Source: Verrucomicrobiota bacterium (GTDB taxonomy: Bacteria > Verrucomicrobiota > Verrucomicrobiia > Limisphaerales > UBA9464). Taken from it: a stretch of 37,554 nucleotides of DNA. Position 1 is the stretch's first letter. Each line of letters opens with the position of its first letter. The stretch spans positions 1 to 37,554 of the forward strand of contig CANIZL010000067.1 in assembly GCA_947471985.1 (NCBI GenBank), given 5' to 3'. The notes under the pieces were generated by a model. That model did not search any database. It had not been told where the DNA came from and saw nothing but the letters and a program-made list of their open reading frames with translations. A program made the translations under genes and the position numbers. Shown here piece by piece: positions 9,808 to 37,554 of the stretch.

Positions 9808-12800
9808 ATGCCGAGCGGCGGGAATATTGCTAAGCTGGGCGCAGTGATCCATCCGGCTTTCTTTCTGCGGCGCACGCTTGGCGCCCTTGGTCTCGGTTTT
9901 CTGGCCCTTGCTGCGAGCCTGCTGTGGGGGCAGGACATTCAGATTCCGATCGATCCGCCGATCATTTTCCCGCCGCAGCTGTCCGAATTTCCGGTGCAGT
10001 TCGGCGAGAGCTGGCGGCTATGGAAGGGTTTGGCGGAGCCCAGCACCAATCCGCCGGCCTGGTACGCGCGGGAGTTCACGGAGACGGACTGGTCGGGCAC
10101 GCGATTGCCGCTGGCGTCCGGGGTTACCGGTCTGGGCGGCACCGTGCTGCGGGACATGCGCGGGGCCTACACGACTGCATACCTCCGGAAATCCTTTCAA
10201 CTGGACGACCCGGGAAGCATCAATCAGCTGATCGTCCATGTGCGGGCCAGCGATGGCTTCGTGGTGTGGCTGAACGGGGTGGAGGTCGCCCGCAACAATG
10301 TTCGGTTGGGGGCTTTGAGCCGCACCAATACGGCGACCGTCAATGGATCGTCGGTGTTCAACTACTTCGACTTTCCGGTGGCGGATATCGATGCCGCGTT
10401 GCGCTCCGGCACGAATCAACTGGCGGTGTTGGGGCTGAGTGGATCGCTGAACGACACCGCGTGGGTCATCGATGCGAGTCTGGAATTGGAGCGGGATCTG
10501 ACCAGCCCGGTGGTGGATCGGACAGTTCCCGAAGGCGGCGCGCTGGTGCGGCAGCTCACCACCTTTGAGGTGCTCTTGAGTGAGGCGGTTCAGGGGGTGG
10601 ATGCCGCGGACCTGCGGATCAATGGGTTGGCGGCGACCAACGTGCTGGTGGTGGCGCCCGATGATTATGTCTTCGAGTTCGCGCCGCTTCCTGATGGACC
10701 GGCCGAAGTGACCTTTCGCCCGGACCACGGAATCACCGATCTATCACGGCGGAAGAATCCGCTGACGCTGGCGACCTGGACCGTTCAGGTGGATTCCCAC
10801 GCGCCGCCGGACGGCTTGCAGATCAGTGAGTTCATGGCGGATAACTCCCATACGCTGCGGGATGAGGATGGGGACCGGCCGGATTGGATTGAGATCCGCA
10901 ATACGGGCAGCACCCCGGCCTCGTTGGATCAGTGGGGGCTGAGTGTGGATCCCACCCAGCCGTTGGCGTGGCGCTTTCCGGCGGTGGTGGTGCCCAAGGG
11001 GGGATTTCTGGTGGTTTTCGCCTCCGGCAAGAATCGACGCCAGGTGAATCAGCCGTTGCACACGAATTTCAAACTGCCCAAGGCCGGCGGTTACCTCGCG
11101 CTGGCGTCACCGTCGGGGGAGCCAGTCTCAGTGTTTGCCGCGTATCCGGCCCAGACCGCGGATGTTTCTTACGGGCGGGTTTCCGGCAATGTCCGGGTGG
11201 TGGGATTCTTTCCGCAGCCGACCCCCGGGGCCCGCAATTCCGAATCCGGTCCCGGTTTTGCGCCGGCGGTGGAGTTCAGCGATGCGAGTCAGACGTTTCG
11301 CGGAACGTTGACGCTGAGTCTGGCGACGCCGGATCCGAATGCGGTCATTCGTTACACCACGAATCATCTGGAACCCGACGCGTTGTCTTCGCTGTACACG
11401 GGACCGCTGGCGCTGACGAGTTCGGTGGAGATCCGGGCGCGGGCCTTTTTGCCGGATCTGCTGCCGGGGCCGGTTCAGAGCGAGACCTATATGCCGCTGG
11501 CAGACGACGTGGTGGCCTTTTCCTCCGATCTGCCAGTGCTGCTGCTCAATGATTTCAATGCCGGCCGGCCGGGACTCGGGGTGGCGACGCCGGCGCATCT
11601 CCAGGTGTTTGCGGCGGGATCCAATTTGTTCGGCAATCTGCCGCTGCTGGCCAAGCGGGCGACGATCGCCGCCCGCGGCTCCAGCACGGCGGGGGAGTCG
11701 AAGGTCAGTATGAAGCTCGAGCTGCAGGATGAATTTGGCAACGATTCGGGCGAATCCCTGCTGGGATTGCCGAAGGATTCCGATTGGATCCTCTATGCCC
11801 CGAATTTGTTTGAGCCGATCCTGATTCACAACCCCTTCGCCCATCAGCTCAGCCGGGACATCGGTCGCTATTCGCCGCGGACGCGTTTCGTGGTGGTTTA
11901 TCTGGTCACCAAGGGCAGTGGTCCGGTGCAGGCGTTGCACTATAGCGGCATCTATGTGTTGGAGGAACAGATCAAGCCGGGTCCGCACCGGGTGGATGTG
12001 GACAAACTTTCGCCGGAAGTCACGAGCCCGAATCTGATCACGGGCGGCTACATGTTCAAGATCGACCGCGGTGGACCGAGCGATGGCTATATCGGGACGA
12101 CGCATCAGACGGTGCTGGTGACCGATCCCAAGGGATACGAATTAAATACGGAACAGTACCAGTATTTGAACACGTATTTTCAGAACTTCGATCAGGCGCT
12201 TTATGCGACGAATTTCCGGGATCCGGTGAAGGGCTATGCCCCGTACGTGGATGTGCCGTCGTGGATTGATCACCATTTGTTGAACGTGCTGACATTCAAC
12301 GTGGATGCCCTGCGGCTGAGCGCCTATTTCTACAAACCGCGCGACGGCAAGCTGCATTTCGGACCGCTGTGGGACTTCGATCGCGCGTTGCGTTCGACCG
12401 ACGGCCGGGACTTCAGTCCGCGGACCTGGCAGAGCACCTCGGGTGATCTGGGGACGGATTTCTTCAATTATACCTGGTGGGATCGGCTCTTTCGGGATCC
12501 GGATTTCTTCCAACGTTATATTGATCGCTATGATGAACTGCGGACGAATCAATTCAGCCTGCCGCATCTGTTTGACCTGGTGGACACGCTGACGACGGAG
12601 GTTCGGAGCGAACAGCCGCGGGAACTGAAGAAGTGGCGCATTGCGCCGCGGGGTGGCTTCAACGGGGAAATTCGGGATCTCAAACTTTGGCTGTCGAACC
12701 GACTGGATTTCATCGACACGCAGTTCGTGCGACCGCCGGCGTGGGGCGGACCGGGCGGGTTGGCGGATCTGGATTTTGCGGCCCGGACCAACGCGACGAT

Positions 12801-13731
12801 TTATTTTACGACGGACGGAACGGATCCGCGGCTGCCGGGCGGCGGCGTGAATTCGAACGCCCTGATTTTTGGCGGACCGCTGACCTTTAACACCAACACG
12901 TTGATCCGCGCGCGGGCCTACAATCCGGATCACAAATCGAAGACGGGCTCGCACAATCCGCCGTTGAGGAGTCTCTGGTCGGCGCCCATACAGCGGGCGC
13001 TGGTGGTTCGGCCGCTGCCGTTGGTGATTTCTGAAATCATGTTTCATCCGGCGGATCCCGGGCCGGGCGTGGATCCGCAGGATTTGGAGTTTGTCGAGTT
13101 GCTGAACCGGGGCAGCGAGCCGCTGGATCTGCGCGGGGTGGTGCTGGAGGGCGGGATTCAGTATGCCTTCGCTGCCGTGAAGTCCCGGATGCTGGCGCCG
13201 CGGGAACGGGTGGTGCTGGTGCACAACCTCGCCGTGTTTGCGCAGTTTTATCCGGGAGTCACCAACGTGGCGGGCGTCTTCACGAATTCCCTCGGCAATG
13301 GGGGGGATCGCCTGTGGGTGACGGGGCCGCTCGGGGAAACCGTGATGGATTTCCGGTATGAAGGCAGTTGGGAATCCGCGGCGGATGGCGCGGGGAAGAG
13401 CCTGGTCCTGGAGTATGAAGGGACGCCGACGGAGGCGCTGGGTGGGGCCCCGAAGTGGCGAGCGAGTGCCTTCCGTGGAGGGTCCCCGGGCGCGGCAGAT
13501 GCGGCCTCGGTGCCCGACATGGCGGTGAAGATGACGCGGGATCGCACGGGGATGACGCTGCGTTTCCAGGCCGCACGGGCCCGTTCCTACCGGCTTTGGA
13601 CGCGCACTGAATTGGGCGAGGATCCGTGGCGGTTGGAGCAGATCCTGTCGGCGTCGAATCAGGATGGGGAGCGGGTGATCAGTCTCACGCCGGGAGAACA
13701 ACCTCAGAACTACCGGGTGACGTCGCCGTAA
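9808..13731 (+). CDS. Secreted CotH-kinase-family protein with lamin-tail domains
   Basis: A 1,307-residue exported protein. A signal segment (RTLGALGLGFLALAASLLWG) is followed by a galactose-binding-like beta domain (to ~230), a lamin-tail domain (~334-450, starting LQISEFMADN), a chitobiase-C-like strand domain (~480-560, AVIRYTTN), a CotH kinase domain (~573-900) and a second chitobiase-C-like repeat (~978-1060, IYFTTDGTDP). A second lamin-tail domain follows (~1070-1205, LVISEIMFHP), then a short C-terminal domain (RARSYRLWTRTEL) common in Verrucomicrobia secreted proteins. CotH proteins are atypical protein kinases. Here HFGPLWDFDRA keeps the metal-binding Asp, while the catalytic-loop motif reads D-A-L-R-L-S, with Ser where D-x4-N is expected. 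The start is ATG 9808; GTG 9844 is an alternative. Substrates are unknown. Confidence 0.88.
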   Translation: MPSGGNIAKLGAVIHPAFFLRRTLGALGLGFLALAASLLWGQDIQIPIDPPIIFPPQLSEFPVQFGESWRLWKGLAEPSTNPPAWYAREFTETDWSGTRLPLASGVTGLGGTVLRDMRGAYTTAYLRKSFQLDDPGSINQLIVHVRASDGFVVWLNGVEVARNNVRLGALSRTNTATVNGSSVFNYFDFPVADIDAALRSGTNQLAVLGLSGSLNDTAWVIDASLELERDLTSPVVDRTVPEGGALVRQLTTFEVLLSEAVQGVDAADLRINGLAATNVLVVAPDDYVFEFAPLPDGPAEVTFRPDHGITDLSRRKNPLTLATWTVQVDSHAPPDGLQISEFMADNSHTLRDEDGDRPDWIEIRNTGSTPASLDQWGLSVDPTQPLAWRFPAVVVPKGGFLVVFASGKNRRQVNQPLHTNFKLPKAGGYLALASPSGEPVSVFAAYPAQTADVSYGRVSGNVRVVGFFPQPTPGARNSESGPGFAPAVEFSDASQTFRGTLTLSLATPDPNAVIRYTTNHLEPDALSSLYTGPLALTSSVEIRARAFLPDLLPGPVQSETYMPLADDVVAFSSDLPVLLLNDFNAGRPGLGVATPAHLQVFAAGSNLFGNLPLLAKRATIAARGSSTAGESKVSMKLELQDEFGNDSGESLLGLPKDSDWILYAPNLFEPILIHNPFAHQLSRDIGRYSPRTRFVVVYLVTKGSGPVQALHYSGIYVLEEQIKPGPHRVDVDKLSPEVTSPNLITGGYMFKIDRGGPSDGYIGTTHQTVLVTDPKGYELNTEQYQYLNTYFQNFDQALYATNFRDPVKGYAPYVDVPSWIDHHLLNVLTFNVDALRLSAYFYKPRDGKLHFGPLWDFDRALRSTDGRDFSPRTWQSTSGDLGTDFFNYTWWDRLFRDPDFFQRYIDRYDELRTNQFSLPHLFDLVDTLTTEVRSEQPRELKKWRIAPRGGFNGEIRDLKLWLSNRLDFIDTQFVRPPAWGGPGGLADLDFAARTNATIYFTTDGTDPRLPGGGVNSNALIFGGPLTFNTNTLIRARAYNPDHKSKTGSHNPPLRSLWSAPIQRALVVRPLPLVISEIMFHPADPGPGVDPQDLEFVELLNRGSEPLDLRGVVLEGGIQYAFAAVKSRMLAPRERVVLVHNLAVFAQFYPGVTNVAGVFTNSLGNGGDRLWVTGPLGETVMDFRYEGSWESAADGAGKSLVLEYEGTPTEALGGAPKWRASAFRGGSPGAADAASVPDMAVKMTRDRTGMTLRFQAARARSYRLWTRTELGEDPWRLEQILSASNQDGERVISLTPGEQPQNYRVTSP

Positions 13732-24214: not shown

Positions 24215-25867
24215 ATGAATCCCTCTTTCTTCGTGCGGAATCGATTTTGCGCTCTGCTGCCGCTGCTGTGGGTGGCGGCATTTCTGTCATTGCGCGCGAC
24301 CGCGGCCAAGCCGCGGCCGGCCGATGCCGCCGCCGCACTTTTTGCGGCCACCAACGTCCTGCGGATCGAAATCGAAATTCCGCCGCCCGCGCTGGAGTCA
24401 CTCCGGTCCCAGCGGGGGTTCTTTGATCGCTCGACCAATCGGGAAAAGGTCCAGGTGACGATCCGCGAAGGCGGGCGCGTGTATACCAACGTGACGGCGC
24501 AACTGAAGGGCGCGGCGGGGAGTTTTCGGGCGATCGACACCAAGCCCGCGTTCACCTTGAATTTTGAGAAGCTGGCGAACGGGCAGAATTTTCACGGGCT
24601 CGAAAAATTGAGTCTGAACAACTCGGTGCAGGATCCGACGTACGCGAGCGAGCAGGTTTGCCGGGAGATTTTCCTCCAGGCGGGCGTCCCGGTGCCGCGG
24701 GCCACGCCGGTGCGGGTCGCGCTGAACGGGCACGATCTCGGCGCTTATGTGCTCGTGGAGGGTTGGGATAAACGTTTCCTGCGAAACCATTTCGACGAGC
24801 CCCTGGGGCACCTCTACGACGGCGGCTTTGTCAAAGACGTCAGTGAGAAGCTGTCCTTGAATTCGGGCAAGAATCCCGACGATCAATCCGATCGGGAAGC
24901 CCTGCTTCGGGCCGCGAACGAGCCCGATCCCGCGCGTCGCAAGGTGGAATTGGAGAAGCTGCTCGACGTGGATCGGTTTCTAACCTTTGTGGCCCTCGAC
25001 GTCATTCTGTGGAATTGGGATGGCTACGCGATGAACCGGAACAACTGGCGGTTGTATCACGATGCCGCGCGGGGCCGGATGGTATTCATGCCGCACGGGA
25101 TGGATCAGATGTTCTGGAAACCGGACGGCCCCATCCTGCCGTCGATGAGTGGACTGGTGGCCAAGGCCGTCCTGGGTGTGCCGGAGTGGCGGCAACGGTA
25201 TTTGAAGCGGGTGGCGGAATTACAGGTGTCGGCGTTGCCGGTGCCCGCAATCACCAATCGGATCCGGGGGATTTCCGCCCGGGTGCGCCCGATCCTGGCG
25301 GAGACCGAGGCCGCGAGTCTGCCGGAATTCGATCGGTCTGTCGCTGCGTTGTGTGACGCGGTGAGCCGTCGTCACGCGAGTCTTACCCGGCAGTTATCCC
25401 AACCGATTGAGCCGGGTAAATTCGACGCCGCAGGCCGGTCGTCGCTGGCGGGTTGGCGGGCGTCGGTGGATTTTGGCACGCCGGTGCTGACGCCGTCCGC
25501 GGCGCCGGGCGCGGGGCAGCCGCTGGTGATTGGCACAACGAACGGGAGTAGTATCGGTACCTGGCGGCTCACCCGCTGGTTGGAGCAGGGTTCGTACCGC
25601 CTGGAAGGCCGGATTCGCACCCGGGGCTTGGCGGGAGATCCCGGTGATACGCGGGCGGGCGCGGGCTTGCGCGTCGGCAAGGCGCGACCGGAGGGCTATC
25701 GCACGGGCGATTCCGAATGGGTGCTCTTCCAGCGGGAATTCCAAGTGGAGGAACCCCTGACGGAAGTGCCGTTTTTCTGCGAATTCCGCGGCCAGACCGG
25801 CCAGGCGGAATTCGATCTCGAAACCCTGCGACTGGTGCGGCTGCCGAGTCCGTCGCCGTCGCAATAA
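24215..25867 (+). CDS. Secreted CotH-kinase-family protein (short form)
   Basis: A 550-residue exported protein with a signal peptide (CALLPLLWVAAFLSLRATAA). The CotH domain spans about 45-330: LRIEIEIPPPALESLR, KPAFTLNFEKLANGQ, LEKLSLNNSVQDPT, ARV-type strands, and the kinase-like core ILWNWDGYAMNRNNWRLYHD. That core keeps D-x4-N (Asp in NWD, Asn five residues later), as in the catalytic loop of the kinase fold, and a downstream Asp in PHGMDQMFW. The C-terminal ~150 residues look like a carbohydrate-binding sandwich (SYRLEGRIRTRG, TEVPFFCEFRGQTGQAEFDL). Unlike the long CotH protein at 9808 there are no lamin-tail domains. It follows the triple beta-domain gene by 40 bases, and its stop is 7 bases from the stop of proA on the other strand. 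Confidence 0.87.
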   Translation: MNPSFFVRNRFCALLPLLWVAAFLSLRATAAKPRPADAAAALFAATNVLRIEIEIPPPALESLRSQRGFFDRSTNREKVQVTIREGGRVYTNVTAQLKGAAGSFRAIDTKPAFTLNFEKLANGQNFHGLEKLSLNNSVQDPTYASEQVCREIFLQAGVPVPRATPVRVALNGHDLGAYVLVEGWDKRFLRNHFDEPLGHLYDGGFVKDVSEKLSLNSGKNPDDQSDREALLRAANEPDPARRKVELEKLLDVDRFLTFVALDVILWNWDGYAMNRNNWRLYHDAARGRMVFMPHGMDQMFWKPDGPILPSMSGLVAKAVLGVPEWRQRYLKRVAELQVSALPVPAITNRIRGISARVRPILAETEAASLPEFDRSVAALCDAVSRRHASLTRQLSQPIEPGKFDAAGRSSLAGWRASVDFGTPVLTPSAAPGAGQPLVIGTTNGSSIGTWRLTRWLEQGSYRLEGRIRTRGLAGDPGDTRAGAGLRVGKARPEGYRTGDSEWVLFQREFQVEEPLTEVPFFCEFRGQTGQAEFDLETLRLVRLPSPSPSQ

Positions 25868-32243: not shown

Positions 32244-33209
32244 TTAACGGGCCAGCACGTGCCGCAGGTAAAGGTACATCAACGGCGCGTTGAAGAGCAG
32301 GGAGTCGAGCAGGTCCAGAATCCCGCCGATGCCCGGGAAGAATTTTCCGGAATCCTTCGCTCCGGCTTCGCGCTTGAAGATGGATTCGATCAGGTCGCCC
32401 ACGACGGCGGCCAGACTGAGGATCACGCCCAGGATGATCGCATGGGTCAGGTTCATGCCCGCCAGTTTCGGCCCGGCCAGATGGGCGAACAGGATGCTGG
32501 CGAGGGTGGAAACGACCACCGCACCGCCGAGCCCTTCCCACGTTTTTCCCGGACTGATACGCGGGATCATCTTGTGTCGACCGATCAAGGACCCGGTGCA
32601 ATAGGCGCCGAGATCGCTGAATTTGGTGACGACGATGAAATACAGAACGTAGAAGCGGCCATCGACCAGGGGATGCCCGGGCAGGGTGGGCAGGAAGTTG
32701 ATTTTCTGGATGAAATTCAGCAACCACGGCACGTACATGAACCCGAGCAGGGTGGTGGACATGGTGGTGAAGGCGACGGCCTGACGTTCCTTCGAAATGA
32801 ATTCCCGCACGCACAGCCCGAGGAAGAAGAAGATCAGGACGGTGGTTTCGAAGTCATTCGCCTTGGCCGGCATGGTGCTAAAGCCGGCCGCCCGCTGATA
32901 GGAGGTGACGTAGAAAAAGGTTCCCGCCATCAGGACGCTTCCACTGACCAGGCCCCAGCCCTTGAAGCAGGGCAGACCCCGCAGGGCTACGAGACCGTAG
33001 AATTCAATCAATCCGGTGGTGGCGAGCAACAGCATCAGGGCGAGGAACACGTATTCCCGGATGAACAAATTGCCGGAGAACATGGCGGTCAGCACGATGC
33101 CCCACAGGACGGTGGTGCTGGCGAGACGACGCAGGAAGACCTGCCCCTTGGAGAGGGCGGGCGGGGACGGGGCGGGATTGGATCCGGCAGCCACGGTCGG
33201 AACGGACAT
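32244..33209 (-). CDS. cdsA: Phosphatidate cytidylyltransferase
   Basis: A 321-residue integral membrane enzyme making CDP-diacylglycerol from phosphatidate and CTP, the branch point of phospholipid synthesis. Several membrane helices are visible (TVLWGIVLTAMFSG, EYVFLALMLLLATTGLIEF, VLIFFFLGLCV, FYVLYFIVVTKFSDLGAYC, IILGVILSLAAVVGDLI). The C-terminal CDS signature is intact: SPGKTWEGLGGA, then GDLIESIFKREAGAKDSG and PGIGGILDLLDSLLF. ATG 33209 fits. Its substrate CTP is made by pyrG, about 2 kb away on the other strand. Confidence 0.96.
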   Translation of the reverse strand: MSVPTVAAGSNPAPSPPALSKGQVFLRRLASTTVLWGIVLTAMFSGNLFIREYVFLALMLLLATTGLIEFYGLVALRGLPCFKGWGLVSGSVLMAGTFFYVTSYQRAAGFSTMPAKANDFETTVLIFFFLGLCVREFISKERQAVAFTTMSTTLLGFMYVPWLLNFIQKINFLPTLPGHPLVDGRFYVLYFIVVTKFSDLGAYCTGSLIGRHKMIPRISPGKTWEGLGGAVVVSTLASILFAHLAGPKLAGMNLTHAIILGVILSLAAVVGDLIESIFKREAGAKDSGKFFPGIGGILDLLDSLLFNAPLMYLYLRHVLAR

Positions 33210-33678
33210 GCGCCGACGCTAGCCCGACTTTCGGCCCTGGCGCCTATTTTTGTGCAGAAACTGCGGATTCATTGGCGAAACAGCCCCCGCTCGCTCCCAG
33301 GTCTGCACGACAGAATTGAGTTCAGCCGACCACTTCACACTACCTTCTGGCCGCGGATCTGCGGGGGCGGTGGTTCCGGAAAGGTCTTCCTACTGCCGTC
33401 CAGCCGAAACCCTACGCGCCCACGCCATCACCCAAACGGTCCGCGGGCCCCAAAAGCTTTTGCGGCGCCTGCCCCATCGCCGCAATTCCTCATCAAATGT
33501 ACCAATCCAAGAATCCAAATCTCCCTTTCCGCGGAGCGTCGAGAAAGCAATTTGCTGCCAGTAGTTCCCCCGGAGTTTGAAAGGGAGCCCCTTCGACACA
33601 AACCATCTGTGCCGGTCCGATCGGAAAATATTTACGGGTAGCAGTTCGTTTTTGCGGTTGGGTGGTGGTTAGCTGGCG
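33210..33678. other. Divergent upstream region of cdsA and the sigma-fusion gene
   Basis: A 469-base gap with no convincing gene. It must hold promoters for both divergent genes. The one candidate I can point to is described separately at 33623-33650. The middle part (33290-33600) shows nothing I can name. Confidence 0.4.
33623..33650 (+). promoter_or_regulatory. Candidate ECF-type promoter of the sigma-fusion gene
   Basis: GGAAAAT at 33623-33629 and CGTT at 33647-33650, 17 bases apart, match the general ECF sigma promoter layout (GGAA-type -35, CGT-type -10). Transcription would start near 33657, leaving about 22 bases before ATG 33679. ECF genes often activate themselves. The match is short, so chance is possible. 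Confidence 0.3.
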
Positions 33679-36600
33679 ATGAAAGAATTCGTTCCCGAAA
33701 CTGCGGAAACGCTCCTGGCGCGATTTGCCAGCGAACGTGACGAAGGCGCATTCCAGAGTTTGGTACACCGGCACTTGCCCTTTGTCTATCACGCGGCGTT
33801 GCGCCAGCTCAATGGCGATCACGCCGCGGCAGAGGATGTTTCGATCGGCGTGTTTGCGGATTTGGCCACCAAAGCCACTTCCGTTGTCAGTCACCCATCT
33901 CTCGCGGGTTGGCTGTTCACTGCCATTCGCCAACGAACCAGCAACGTCCGTCGCGATAACGCCCGCCGTCGTCTCCGTGAAACTCTCGCCGCCGAACTCA
34001 TGCATCCCACTGCAACCTCCGAGCCCCATTGGAATGAACTCCGACCGCTAATCGATGATGCCTTGGAAGAGCTCTCAGAGGCCGATCGCGCGGCGGTCCT
34101 CGGGCGGTACTTCGAGGATCAGCCGCATACCCAACTCGGTGAACGCTGGGGTGTATCCGAAAGCGCGGCGAGAATGCGGGTGGAACGGGCCACCGATCGA
34201 TTGCGCATCGTGTTGGGCCGCCGCGGCGTCACTTCAACCACCGCCGCCGTCGGTGCCGCCTTGGCCGGTCACGCCTATTGCGCCGACCTACCCTCAGGAA
34301 TCGCGGACCGAGTTGTTGATCGCGCCTTGGCGGGTCTGGCGCCATCAGCAAGCCTCGTGGTGGCGGTCACGACGGGATCCAGAGCAACGATTTGGCAGGG
34401 ACTGGCAACGGCAGCGTTCGTAGCCATCTTGGTCGCGGTGACGGTTTATCGAAGTAGCGCGGCCAGGGCGGAATTAAACGCGGCGGCAGACAACCTACCC
34501 AGGTCAACGCCGGTTGGTTCAGGGTCAGAGTTTTCAGCAAGGCCGACTGTCACCGGCACTGTTGACATCTCGAATCAGGACCAAAGCATGATCAGCGGTG
34601 GGCTTACTTTGAATGTCCTCAATCTCGATTTCCGTACGGCCGAGGGCCAGCCGGTCGGGGACGTGCGGATGGATGTTCACTACTACAGCCCAGACGGGAC
34701 AGGTGGCCGAGTCCTGACGAACAACCTGCATGGAATGACCCTGGTTGAGTATCCCACCAACACGACTCGACTGGAAATATTCACGGCGCGAGACGGTTGG
34801 GGTGACATGACTCTCCGATGGGACATCGCGCGACAGGAACTTATTCCCGAACGCCAAACGGTGATCGTGGAGCCGGGTGTCTTCCTCGGCGGGGTAGTCA
34901 CCGATTTCAACGGAAAGGGTATGCCCGGTATCATCGTAACATTTTATAACGGCCAGAACGGAGAAGCTGAAGAAAAGAACCTACGTTCAACTTTAAAGGT
35001 CCTTGAGACCACCACGGATTCGGCGGGCCGGTGGGAGACTCGGCGTGTCCCGAAATCCTTGCGGGAACGAGCCATACTTTCCTTTGCCGGGCCAGAACTC
35101 ACGCAGGATCAAAAATACCGGAGCGAAAAATACGGTGCTGACCGAAAGGTGGAATTGGCGGCGGCAATGGCCAATCAACATCAAGCGAGAATGCAGTCCA
35201 CCGACACACTTGTCGGCCGTGTTCTTGACGACTTGGGACGTCCGGTTGCCGGGGCGCTGGCTGCCTGGGGGGACCCGGGAATTATTCAAGATTGCGAGAC
35301 TTGCCTGAGGGCACGTTCGGAGATTGACGGCAATTTTTCCCTGGCCGGACGATTTTCCGATAGTGCCCCAATTTTCATTCACGCACCGGAATGGGCGCTG
35401 AGCATAAATGTAGTCACCAACTCCGGCCCAACGACAATTAAACTAAATCGCGGCCGACCGCTGTCCCTCCGATTCACCGAATTGGACGGAAAGTTGATTT
35501 CCAACGCCATTGTAGATCGGATATATGTCGATCTTGATCAGAATAATACAGTTTTTCTTCAACGGTGGTTTCATCCGGATTCCAATGGGCAACTTTGCTG
35601 GACGAATGCCCCCAATTATCCTTTGACCTTGGAGGTGTCCAGTCCGGGCCATCAGCGACGCACCGTTACGGTCAGTGCGAATTGGGCGGGCGAGCAGGCG
35701 ATAACTCTGAGTCCGGAAGCGGCATTGCAAGGAGTCGTTGTCGACGATCAGACCGATGAACCGATACCGCGCTTCTTGATCAAGATTGGCGTATTGCGGG
35801 AAATGCCGGGCTCTAGCAATATTTTCTGGCCGCAGTTTGTCTATGAAATGCCCGTCTTCAACAATGGCCTCTATCGCGCCAGCGCCAATGACTCGTTCAA
35901 TGCGACACAGGGAGGAGTCGGGATCAGCGGCGTTTTCTTCCGTTTTGAATCTGAGGGCTACGAGCCGCTCATCTCGAAATTGATTCGACTGGATGCCGGT
36001 ACGGTCACGATGAATCAACGGCTGCATCGCGCCACGACCGCTGATATTTGGATAATGGATGCCGAGTCTCATCCGGTTCCGTCAGCGCGGATTGGCCTCG
36101 CACGGAACCGCACCGCACTCACTTTGGCAAGTGGTCGGCTAAGTTCCGGTCGCGGCGCCGACCAGGAGACCATGATCGACGCTGATCCCCGGGGCGTATT
36201 TCGCGCGAGTTCTGATTCCTACATCACGCGCTATCTGGTTACGGCACCTGCCGGATTTGCGAGCGTGGACGCAGAAATGGCGCGCAAATCCCGACGCATC
36301 GATCTACAGCCTTGGGGAAAGGTGCGTGGCACAGTCCTGTGGAGCGGAGTCGCGGCATCCGGTGAAGTAATTGTTCGCGACGGGGCGACCTTTGAACTCG
36401 GAGGTTCATCCCTATCTGAATCCGTAACCCGGGCCGCGTTAAGTGTCGATGGATCCTTTCTTGTGCCACAGGTCGCTCCTGGAACTCATGTGATTCAATT
36501 GCGCATGGGGGATCAAACTCAGTATCTCGGCGAGGTCGTGGTCCGGCCGGGTGAGACCGCTACCTTTGATTTTCGGCCAGCGTTCCGTCCGGTGGCCGTA

Positions 36601-36966
36601 AGAGTAAGTTGGCCAGCGGCGTTGGTGGCGAGCGCGTCGATTCGGCGCTACGTCGTTCTGGAAACTCAAAACATGTTGCCACCCGATAGTCCGAACATGG
36701 ACGCTGCAACGCAGGAATGGGTGGCCCGACCTGAGGTCCATGCGGCTCGTTTGCGTCAACGTCGTTTCGTGGCGGACGAAGCATCGCCGGGGCAGTACAT
36801 ATTTCCCCATGTCCCGCCGGATCGATACGAGTTGGTCGTCCTGATCACCACCGGAGAGAGCCCAAACTATCACTTTCAAACGCCAGTGCGGCGGGTTCTC
36901 GATCTCGAGTCGGCTCCCCATGGGGAGTTGCTGGACGCGGGCGTGCTGGAATTTCAAGGCAACTGA
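33679..36966 (+). CDS. ECF sigma factor fused to a membrane anchor and large beta-repeat domain
   Basis: A 1,095-residue protein. Residues ~10-90 are sigma-70 region 2 (LLARFASERDEGAFQSLVHR, AAEDVSIGVFADLATKA). Residues ~125-185 are region 4 (ALEELSEADRAAVLGRYFED, then a helix-turn-helix TQLGERWGVSESAARMRVER). A linker (RRGVTSTTAAVGAAL) leads to one transmembrane helix at about 239-257 (WQGLATAAFVAILVAVTVY). Beyond it lie ~835 residues of beta-sandwich repeats of the carboxypeptidase-regulatory type, opening near 401 (GVFLGGVVTDFNGKGMPG), 509 (DTLVGRVLDDLGRPVAG), 682 (ALQGVVVDDQTDEPIPR), 787 (ADIWIMDAESHPVPSARI) and 880 (GKVRGTVLWSG). Topology predicts a cytoplasmic sigma part and a periplasmic rest. 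Comparable sigma-TM fusions are known in planctomycetes and verrucomicrobia. No separate anti-sigma gene is adjacent. Release by proteolysis is inferred only. Confidence 0.88.
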   Translation: MKEFVPETAETLLARFASERDEGAFQSLVHRHLPFVYHAALRQLNGDHAAAEDVSIGVFADLATKATSVVSHPSLAGWLFTAIRQRTSNVRRDNARRRLRETLAAELMHPTATSEPHWNELRPLIDDALEELSEADRAAVLGRYFEDQPHTQLGERWGVSESAARMRVERATDRLRIVLGRRGVTSTTAAVGAALAGHAYCADLPSGIADRVVDRALAGLAPSASLVVAVTTGSRATIWQGLATAAFVAILVAVTVYRSSAARAELNAAADNLPRSTPVGSGSEFSARPTVTGTVDISNQDQSMISGGLTLNVLNLDFRTAEGQPVGDVRMDVHYYSPDGTGGRVLTNNLHGMTLVEYPTNTTRLEIFTARDGWGDMTLRWDIARQELIPERQTVIVEPGVFLGGVVTDFNGKGMPGIIVTFYNGQNGEAEEKNLRSTLKVLETTTDSAGRWETRRVPKSLRERAILSFAGPELTQDQKYRSEKYGADRKVELAAAMANQHQARMQSTDTLVGRVLDDLGRPVAGALAAWGDPGIIQDCETCLRARSEIDGNFSLAGRFSDSAPIFIHAPEWALSINVVTNSGPTTIKLNRGRPLSLRFTELDGKLISNAIVDRIYVDLDQNNTVFLQRWFHPDSNGQLCWTNAPNYPLTLEVSSPGHQRRTVTVSANWAGEQAITLSPEAALQGVVVDDQTDEPIPRFLIKIGVLREMPGSSNIFWPQFVYEMPVFNNGLYRASANDSFNATQGGVGISGVFFRFESEGYEPLISKLIRLDAGTVTMNQRLHRATTADIWIMDAESHPVPSARIGLARNRTALTLASGRLSSGRGADQETMIDADPRGVFRASSDSYITRYLVTAPAGFASVDAEMARKSRRIDLQPWGKVRGTVLWSGVAASGEVIVRDGATFELGGSSLSESVTRAALSVDGSFLVPQVAPGTHVIQLRMGDQTQYLGEVVVRPGETATFDFRPAFRPVAVRVSWPAALVASASIRRYVVLETQNMLPPDSPNMDAATQEWVARPEVHAARLRQRRFVADEASPGQYIFPHVPPDRYELVVLITTGESPNYHFQTPVRRVLDLESAPHGELLDAGVLEFQGN

Positions 36967-36970
36967 ATAA

Positions 36971-37037
36971 CGCTGCCGAGGTTGGCAGCGACTGCCCCAC
37001 CGGAATGACACCACCCAATCGCACAACGATTGGGTGG
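36971..37037 (+). terminator. Two tandem hairpins after the sigma-fusion gene
   Basis: The first stem is CGCTGCC/GGCAGCG (36971-36977 and 36984-36990, 6-base loop), starting 4 bases past the stop codon. The second is a perfect 11-base-pair stem CCACCCAATCG/CGATTGGGTGG (37011-37021 and 37027-37037, loop CACAA). Neither is followed by a T-run, so termination is uncertain. They may instead protect the mRNA 3' end, or belong to the repeat debris around the transposase remnant. Confidence 0.45.
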
Positions 37038-37215
37038 CCAAAATTTGATGGGGCGTCCGCTGCCGCGACGACTCAATTTCTCTTCATACACTGCCGAGCA
37101 GGTGACTCATTATCCAGAACCCAAGATCTCCAAACGAAGGTATTTGGTTGGAAGCAACGAGGTCAGATCCACGCAGTTGACAATAGGATCAGGGTCGAAG
37201 CGGCTCGATGGATTC

Positions 37216-37437
37216 ATGGCCAGACCGTTGCGACGACTCGTGGTGGGACGGTGGTGTCACGTAACCGTTCGCGGCAATCGGCGGAATTCGCTGTTTTGCG
37301 ATGAGCAGGATCGGCGGGGATTTCTCGGATTGGTGGCGGCATGGCCGGGGTACTCTGGCATCGATGTTCCCGCCTTCGTGCGGATGGACAATCAGTACCA
37401 CCTGCTGCTGCGGACGCCCGAGCCCAATCTCCTTTAG
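37216..37437 (+). pseudogene. Truncated REP-associated Y1 transposase remnant
   Basis: Only the N-terminal ~73 residues of an IS200/REP-type (RAYT) HUH nuclease remain. The start MARPLRRLVVGRWCHVTVRG, then NRRNSLFCDEQDRRGFLGLV, follows the family's N-terminus closely, and VRMDNQYHLLLRTPEPNL is its HUH strand. The normal N-H-x-H here reads N-Q-Y-H, so the first metal-binding His is lost. A TAG at 37435 stops the frame right after PEPNLL, where full proteins run on for ~150-250 residues with the catalytic Tyr. No homologous continuation is seen in the remaining 117 bases. It is therefore a dead copy. Intact relatives cut and move REP-type repeats, like those at 1265-1900 and 6255-6745. Confidence 0.8.
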
Positions 37438-37554
37438 TTCTATCTTTCCCCGTTCGCGTGTCCCTCCCTCGCACGCATACGATAACTGTAGCGGCCCGAA
37501 ATGATTCCCAGCGCCCCAAAAGCGCTCGTGGCGCCGACGACGCCGCCGCAAGGT

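Follow-up and report, generated by a model that had tools for sequence, protein, structure and literature searches.

A probable one-piece, membrane-tethered ECF sigma factor family of Verrucomicrobiota with promoters that appear matched to their own genes

Extracytoplasmic function (ECF) sigma factors that carry a membrane anchor and an outer part within the same polypeptide have been described before; ECF48, ECF52, ECF53 and IutY (ECF243) belong in this category (PMC8999054; PMC5826349). The first of these, a review, reports that IutY of Pseudomonas putida is freed by Prc and RseP and is active in truncated form, and that ECF52 is probably cleaved (PMC8999054). In a Streptomyces strain making the truncated sigma of SCO4117, the gene's own expression was activated, and that study calls positive autoregulation common among ECFs (PMC5826349). 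Membrane-fused ECFs are mostly known from predictions. Here we describe a gene of similar build at positions 33679-36966 (+ strand) of a 37,554-nucleotide stretch of DNA (contig CANIZL010000067.1 of assembly GCA_947471985.1, from a Verrucomicrobiota bacterium of the Limisphaerales), referred to below as the window.

Our preferred interpretation, to which we assign a probability of roughly 0.7, is that this gene encodes a one-component membrane-tethered ECF sigma that is released upon an outer signal and transcribes its own gene from the adjacent promoter. According to this model, the N-terminal sigma would lie in the cytoplasm, with a conserved linker and one helix tying it to the inner membrane, while the outer C-terminal string of beta-sandwiches would replace a separate membrane anti-sigma factor. 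A signal acting on the outer part would lead, most likely through cleavage near or in the membrane by a protease of the site-2 type, to liberation of the sigma-plus-linker fragment, which would then join RNA polymerase. The freed sigma would read an ECF-type promoter before its own gene, creating a positive feedback with a start point very close to the ATG. Directly legible in the DNA are one frame, canonical ECF regions and one helix, together with a family promoter that matches the specificity residues of its own gene. In the family, both the tether and the feedback have good support, and release is the step that we infer; so too we infer the topology, the cleavage, the signal, the start point, a linker that keeps the tethered sigma inactive and a window copy that works like its relatives. 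The gene and its parts are laid out as follows, pLDDT being the predicted local distance difference test score of the AlphaFold model.

33639..33674, + strand: self-promoter-like motif TAGCAGTTCGTTTTTGCGGTTGGGTGGTGGTTAGCT, 4 nt before the ATG, with a -35-like element GTTCGTTTT at 33644-33652 and a -10-like GGTTA at 33667-33671
33679..36966, + strand: membrane-tethered ECF sigma factor, whole gene, 1095 aa, ATG start, single frame
33712..33981, + strand: sigma region 2, residues 12-101 (Pfam/NCBIfam; pLDDT mostly about 90 or more)
34051..34206, + strand: sigma region 4 with recognition helix (S162, R165, M166), residues 125-176 (Pfam; 162, 165 and 166 covary with the -35 element)
34222..34344, + strand: conserved linker, residues 182-222, RG(V/I)TST..AL...AV.AAP.GL (alignment; modelled helices 188-198 and 208-218)
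34390..34446, + strand: single predicted transmembrane helix, residues 238-256 (hydropathy; an N-terminal model puts it at 243-261)
34447..34593, + strand: outer stalk, residues 257-305, of low confidence and poorly conserved (pLDDT <50 over 222-305; 14% identity)
34594..36963, + strand: beta-sandwich repeat string, residues 306-1095, CarboxypepD_reg / CnaB / macroglobulin-like (Pfam, AlphaFold, Foldseek)

All 1095 codons are open from ATG to stop, with no internal stop. The NCBIfam sigma70-ECF model TIGR02937 matches at 9e-17 (61.1 bits against a cut-off of 42.9) and Pfam Sigma70_r4 at 2e-8 over residues 128-176; Sigma70_r2, at residues 28-97, falls slightly short of its cut-off (5e-5, 23.4 bits vs 24). 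The two regions are joined by a short loop (102-117), with no large domain between or before them, which is the layout of ECF (group 4) sigma factors, regions 2 and 4 only. A family profile matches the solved ECFs SigE (1e-22), SigW (2e-16) and RpoE (2e-13). The sole strong hydrophobic 19-mer of the protein is 238-256 (mean hydropathy 2.05), and 839 residues follow it, about 49 of them in the stalk and about 790 in the beta-sandwich repeats. In the whole-protein AlphaFold model (mean pLDDT 80; predicted template modelling score, pTM, 0.61) the sigma domains are confident and residues 222-305 low. The analysis thus confirms that sigma, membrane anchor and outer domain are joined in one polypeptide. 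An earlier note on this DNA had read regions 2 and 4, one transmembrane helix and repeats in an unbroken frame, and had taken sensor, anchor and sigma to be one molecule; Pfam, NCBIfam and hydropathy bear out the former, and the fused frame kept in relatives the latter.

It is most improbable that the frame really encodes a short sigma and, from a start of its own, a distinct outer protein. One family locus (L128) does encode, downstream of the same promoter, a membrane protein that consists of the tail alone. Against this, the aligned full-length relatives are all single frames, the G+C content at third codon positions is alike across all segments of the gene (0.58-0.66), and a search limited to promoters of the sigma-70-like type found none within 33200-37554. 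The two-gene alternative was rejected on these grounds, the internal start with its own promoter that the earlier note had named as a possible objection not having turned up.

The strongest argument for self-transcription comes from the DNA upstream of the family genes. An ECF-type motif (approximately TGTGCGGTTT, then CGGCGGgtgcTAT) stands directly before the start codon in 66 of 72 upstream regions, counting those that score above every one of 780 shuffled upstream controls (highest 19.4 bits). With a two-block matrix, 71 of 72 non-redundant regions, the window's included, score from 14.9 to 42.1 bits, and seven of the 780 shuffled regions reach 14.9. The remaining region (L115) scores 3.7; since the motif was found further upstream in a later scan, its start codon was probably wrongly chosen. 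GTGCGGT occurs in 21 of 73 family upstream regions vs 1.6 expected from shuffles. Across 1.12 Mb of loci, which contain the training set and some DNA counted twice, 99 sites exceed 25 bits vs one in a shuffled copy, and 92 of the 99 directly precede a family gene. The blocks keep a near-fixed spacing and lie mostly 5-14 bases from the ATG, a distance that would imply nearly leaderless transcripts for dozens of family genes.

Covariation between promoter and protein, which Todor et al. (2020) reportedly used to read ECF specificity, links this motif to the sigma encoded behind it. Mutual information over 131 pairs identifies residues 166, 162 and 165 as the strongest partners of -35 base 7 (z 56, 41 and 31), while three -10 bases pair best with residues 89 and 82, then 61, 86 and 85; these residues belong to the region 4 recognition helix and to the -10-reading part of region 2. 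In the same pairs, G at base 7 goes with N162, R165 and M166 (53/53), T with D162 (28/31), C with K166 (47/47) and the TGTCGG form with Q165 (26/26); N162-R165-M166 corresponds to TGTGCG, D162-R165-M166 to TGTTCG, and K166 to TGTC or TGGC. All 12 sites whose second block has T as base 6, the window's included, belong to a sigma with N89. A rule using only residues 162 and 166 predicts the -35 base in 147 of 149 genes, the baseline of copying the nearest relative's base reaching 116, and was correct for 18 of 18 held-out pairs, from loci outside the derivation of the rule and each less than 90% identical to earlier ones. Among 63 disjoint sister pairs, changes at base 7 track residues 162 (p 2e-7) and 166 (p 1e-5), and changes at base 8 track residue 165 (p 1e-5), all best among 200 protein columns.

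Neighbouring family genes provide a further comparison. In eight loci where such neighbours belong to different promoter classes (drawn from 16 loci with more than one family gene), the promoter matches the gene's own sigma in 19 of 19 genes (shuffle P 0.001). The simplest reading is that each family member recognises the promoter of its own gene. Promoter recognition by the gene's own regions 4.2 and 2 appears to hold for the family, firmly at -35 bases 7 and 8 and less so at the -10; for the window copy it is supported only indirectly. Because the motif is present and covaries with their own specificity residues, family members look like working, self-transcribing sigma factors. A degenerate sigma was accordingly rejected for the family: decay of regions 2 and 4 across all homologues, which the earlier note had considered, was not found, their DNA-contact residues covarying with the gene's own promoter. 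One could still envision a different regulator, shared by the family genes, as the protein that binds the motif, and the GGCGG part, which is conserved and shows little covariation, would suit such a regulator. The gene-by-gene covariation with both sigma regions, extending to differences between neighbours, makes this very unlikely.

Several observations nevertheless weigh against self-transcription following release, some concerning the family and others the window copy. A degenerate promoter pattern run on eight genomes gave 25 hits, of which 12 stand before family genes, vs 18 hits for its reversed control. Base 4 of block 1 has its best partners outside the DNA contacts (z 13), probably owing to a few false internal sites that the start filter removed. 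In the sister pairs, no recognition-helix residue leads for -35 base 10 (161 is third, p 0.02); for the -10, residue 89 leads one base (p 5e-4), and the next three are led by 138, 43 and 148, closely followed by 86, 82, 61 or 89. These -10 and base-10 p values survive a 200-column correction at most marginally. As to topology, the positive-inside signal is weak, the N-side being more positive in 59, less positive in 26 and equal in 20 of 105 sequences. An M50 protease is encoded in the window's own genome but also in 14 of 14 control genomes. In the window copy itself, the promoter score is the ninth lowest of 149, and base 7 is T alongside S162, R165 and M166; S162 is unique to this copy among the 149 genes, so the window fits the rule only via its default class. 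The near-invariant Gln of region 2.2 (residue 56; 103/105), which we take to be the equivalent of the core-contacting Q406 of sigma-70, is Ile in the window protein and Leu in its closest paralog. Overall, the window departs at 10 of 58 sigma positions conserved in at least 80% of sequences (family mean 4.0, standard deviation 2.6), the third highest count of 105. The paralog (L011), 51% identical across the first 461 residues, has a promoter that scores below 17 bits and is broken by a stop and an insertion.

These features might mean that the window copy is decaying, the family being functional and the window protein now a poor sigma factor. The substitution at residue 56, the ten departures, the weak promoter score, a Sigma70_r2 match under the Pfam cut-off and the interrupted paralog would all suit this alternative, which we regard as improbable but worth keeping in view. 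On the opposite side stand the intact frame of 1095 codons and the window's N89, which with the T of its promoter fits the -10 pattern. In addition, the -35 bases of window and paralog (T and G) differ as their residues 162 do (S and N), and N with G, read by eye in the paralog, is the pair that the rule expects. The window motif scores 19.8 bits vs the 19.4 maximum of the shuffled regions and is the only position weight matrix match above 17 bits in the whole window, both strands considered. A pattern built from the window and paralog promoters found, with up to three mismatches, only these two genes in their own genome, and nothing in the reversed control; a looser window-promoter pattern found the window alone vs three reversed-control hits, and because of those three hits it has little power.

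The structure of the paralog locus can be pieced together from two contigs. Its frame, at the end of contig C11 (L011, L194), is cut short by a stop at residue 459. C11 ends in the same 149 bases with which C91 (L010, L193) begins, and about 1.6 kb into C91 the outer domain picks up again, after an open minus-strand frame of 449 residues that is transposase-like by eye.

The fusion is not peculiar to the window. Twelve full-length relatives of about 1000-1100 aa, from other genera and families, share the outer repeats and align at 25-30% identity, so the architecture is not a matter of chance. Other members have the common sigma, linker and helix but different tails. As 104 of 105 sequences (window included) keep at least 100 residues past the helix, the sigma-membrane-outer fusion is old; none of the 105 has a second 19-mer of hydropathy above 2.0 in its tail. 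In the window's own genome, 43 places match the region-2 family and 10 match profile A6, which spans the end of region 4, the linker and the helix. By the A6 profile the family is present in 63 of 116 genomes sampled within the order (E <=1e-10), with up to 30 copies in one, and in 10 of 145 genomes of a phylum sample (E <=1e-6), the window's genome being counted in both. A scan of named genomes yielded 406 relatives among 556 candidate stretches; of the best 80 of these 406, 74 bear verrucomicrobial names (Verrucomicrobia, Pedosphaera, Limisphaerales, Opitutae and Akkermansia among them), five are titled "bacterium" and one "Proteobacteria". A contig scan with the window protein alone as query returned no relative. 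A second family gene lies within the flank in 15 of 81 loci. No neighbour family recurs in more than 3 of 24 full-length loci (window included; flanks up to 6 kb); a conserved partner gene was rejected for this reason, and no separate anti-sigma is in sight.

Rather than being released, the tethered sigma might work in place, a conformational change passing through the helix and the promoter being brought to the membrane. Several properties of the linker would suit such a mechanism. It is conserved, 104 of 105 sequences keeping G183 and 103 keeping P205, two residues that seem to mark the family outside the sigma domains; it is modelled as two helices; and its residue 200 is coupled to region-2 residue 38 (z 7.7; sister-pair p 2e-4, rank 2 of 205). 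No conserved protease partner gene is found nearby either. The second linker coupling, 34-204, is however weak in the sister-pair control (rank 17, p 0.007). Moreover, the segments expected to transmit the movement are the least conserved, unlike a rigid signalling rod: among 13 full-length proteins, mean pairwise identity reaches 54% for region 2 and 56% for region 4, with 42% for the linker and 33% for the outer part, and it drops to 18% for the helix and its flank and 14% for the stalk (263-305). Finally, the fused ECF that has been studied experimentally, IutY, is activated by proteolysis according to the review (PMC8999054). We therefore consider a sigma that is never released unlikely, and prefer release by cleavage.

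The linker may act as an anti-sigma in cis, for which the coupling 38-200, the weaker 34-204 and the compact N-terminal model give only hints. Compared over its whole length, this N-terminal model comes closest to SigW and CnrH in their anti-sigma-bound forms (Z 10.0 and 9.5; root-mean-square deviation, rmsd, 8.2 and 6.7 Å). More broadly, the rmsd is 7-9 Å to SigW, CnrH and NepR-bound RpoE, 13 Å to SigK, and 22-28 Å to many holoenzyme-bound chains. The compact shape of this model (pTM 0.64) is not taken to mean autoinhibition.

In the outer part, CarboxypepD_reg matches the window protein at 2.4e-15, two stretches being significant on their own, and a CarboxypepD-like repeat signature, hand-written from the alignment, is fitted at seven or more of its nine positions by five stretches (starts 316, 405, 513, 597 and 790). 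The "at least five" repeats and "~835" outer residues of the earlier note are thus about right. Strands of beta-sandwich type run from residue 307 to the C-terminus of the AlphaFold model. The 50 Foldseek matches listed consist for the most part of sandwich strings, macroglobulins and pilins among them, with template modelling (TM) scores below 0.3; none of them gives a good global superposition, the best being alpha-2-macroglobulin-type and pilin-type strings, and the outer part therefore resembles beads strung on a thread. On the strength of these matches, one common fold or a ligand pocket was rejected for the outer part, and no ligand is named. The structural comparison proposed earlier thus revealed a string of beta-sandwiches and pointed to neither a ligand nor a single fold. 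In the tails of other family members, TonB_C is found in 4 and SLBB in 1 of 52 proteins, and such tails fit an envelope location.

What else these sigma factors might transcribe can be gauged from a sequence-only promoter model, applied to 20 whole genomes with up to 150 candidates scored in each; of the 68 sites on which it was trained, at least 14 come from the genomes searched. It gave 151 matches (84 at E <=1, 67 at E <=0.3). Among 60 loci examined, 43 matches precede family genes and 17 do not. The proportion rises with score: 41 of 48 matches with E <0.05 stand before family genes, as do all 24 with E <0.005 (23 within 104 bases, one at 321), and a further match of the latter grade, at L140, likewise precedes a family gene. 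A few others look like non-self targets, none of them proven, namely genes for secreted proteins (L187, L190) and for a pseudopilin-like protein (L217). At L187 (genome G156) a good family promoter (E 0.029; motif at about 1518-1548) precedes the gene of a secreted 134-aa protein, TonB_C-like by eye; it is a possible non-self target, and TonB_C is also a tail of some family members. L190 (G278) has back-to-back family promoters at about 1990-2100, one before a family sigma gene and the second (E 0.69) before a divergent gene for a secreted-looking protein of 323 aa. At L128, around 1596, a 33.5-bit family promoter precedes a tail-only relative with, by eye, a membrane helix and a coiled coil, without a sigma domain.

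Taken together, the data indicate a large, lineage-limited Verrucomicrobiota family of tethered sigmas kept as working transcription factors, with no conserved adjacent anti-sigma gene, and they suggest many parallel self-activating surface circuits in one cell. It is tempting to speculate, and we do so with considerable doubt, that these are closed one-gene circuits, in which the sigma acts mainly on its own gene and serves to set the dose of its own outer domain. If so, the sensor would be the product: contact with, or load on, the surface string would free the sigma and lead to more string, and the promoter types of the individual copies would let up to 30 circuits coexist with little cross-talk. 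Independently of this scenario, with the promoter code, two residues are enough to predict each member's -35 base, and orphan copies so gain a testable start site.

Elsewhere in the window, 9808-13731 and 24215-25867 each encode a protein with a CotH kinase domain, accompanied in the first by lamin-tail and chitobiase C-terminal domains, and one of the intervening genes encodes a 1320-aa Big_9 protein. Near the contig end, 37030-37437 reads by eye like the start of a REP-associated tyrosine transposase.

How does this family relate to systems already known? The kind is not new, because one-piece membrane ECFs are known from ECF52 and IutY. The earlier interpretation therefore holds for the architecture but not for the novelty of the kind, ECF48 and ECF53 being further precedents; it had also overlooked the self-promoter, how large the lineage-limited family is and that this copy has lost Q56. 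We presume that the planctomycete ECF fusions (ECF01-Gob and relatives) are comparable in carrying long C-terminal extensions on ECFs. Verrucomicrobial membrane-fused ECFs met with no description in the open literature searched, a search that did not include the main classification papers.

In ECF52 (SCO4117 of Streptomyces coelicolor), ECF48 and ECF53, too, a single polypeptide holds the sigma, a membrane helix and an outer region, and autoregulation of ECF52 was seen once the tail was removed (PMC5826349; PMC10766802). All three groups have a zinc finger between sigma and helix, whereas the window family has a linker motif of its own and no zinc finger among the window protein's 6 Pfam matches (E up to 1), the 23 families matched in 52 relatives (0.001) or the matches listed for 37 other relatives. 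The ECF52 outer part is described as proline-rich with a carbohydrate-binding module, and ECF52 as exclusive to Actinobacteria; tails in the window family are instead beta-sandwich strings or other modules, and Pfam gives no carbohydrate-binding module in the window protein. IutY (ECF243) is likewise a sigma fused to a membrane regulator; it works in cell-surface signalling for iron and carries its anti-sigma as a fused part. The window protein has no FecR match at E up to 1. FecR is the type to which we take the fused anti-sigma of ECF243 to belong. With SigW-RsiW and RpoE-RseA the window protein shares the region 2 and 4 folds, but in those pairs the anti-sigma is separate, while here anchor and outer part are provided in cis. 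Within this kind, the family stands out by the lack of a zinc finger, a conserved linker of its own, a lineage-limited expansion and a self-promoter code that can be read.

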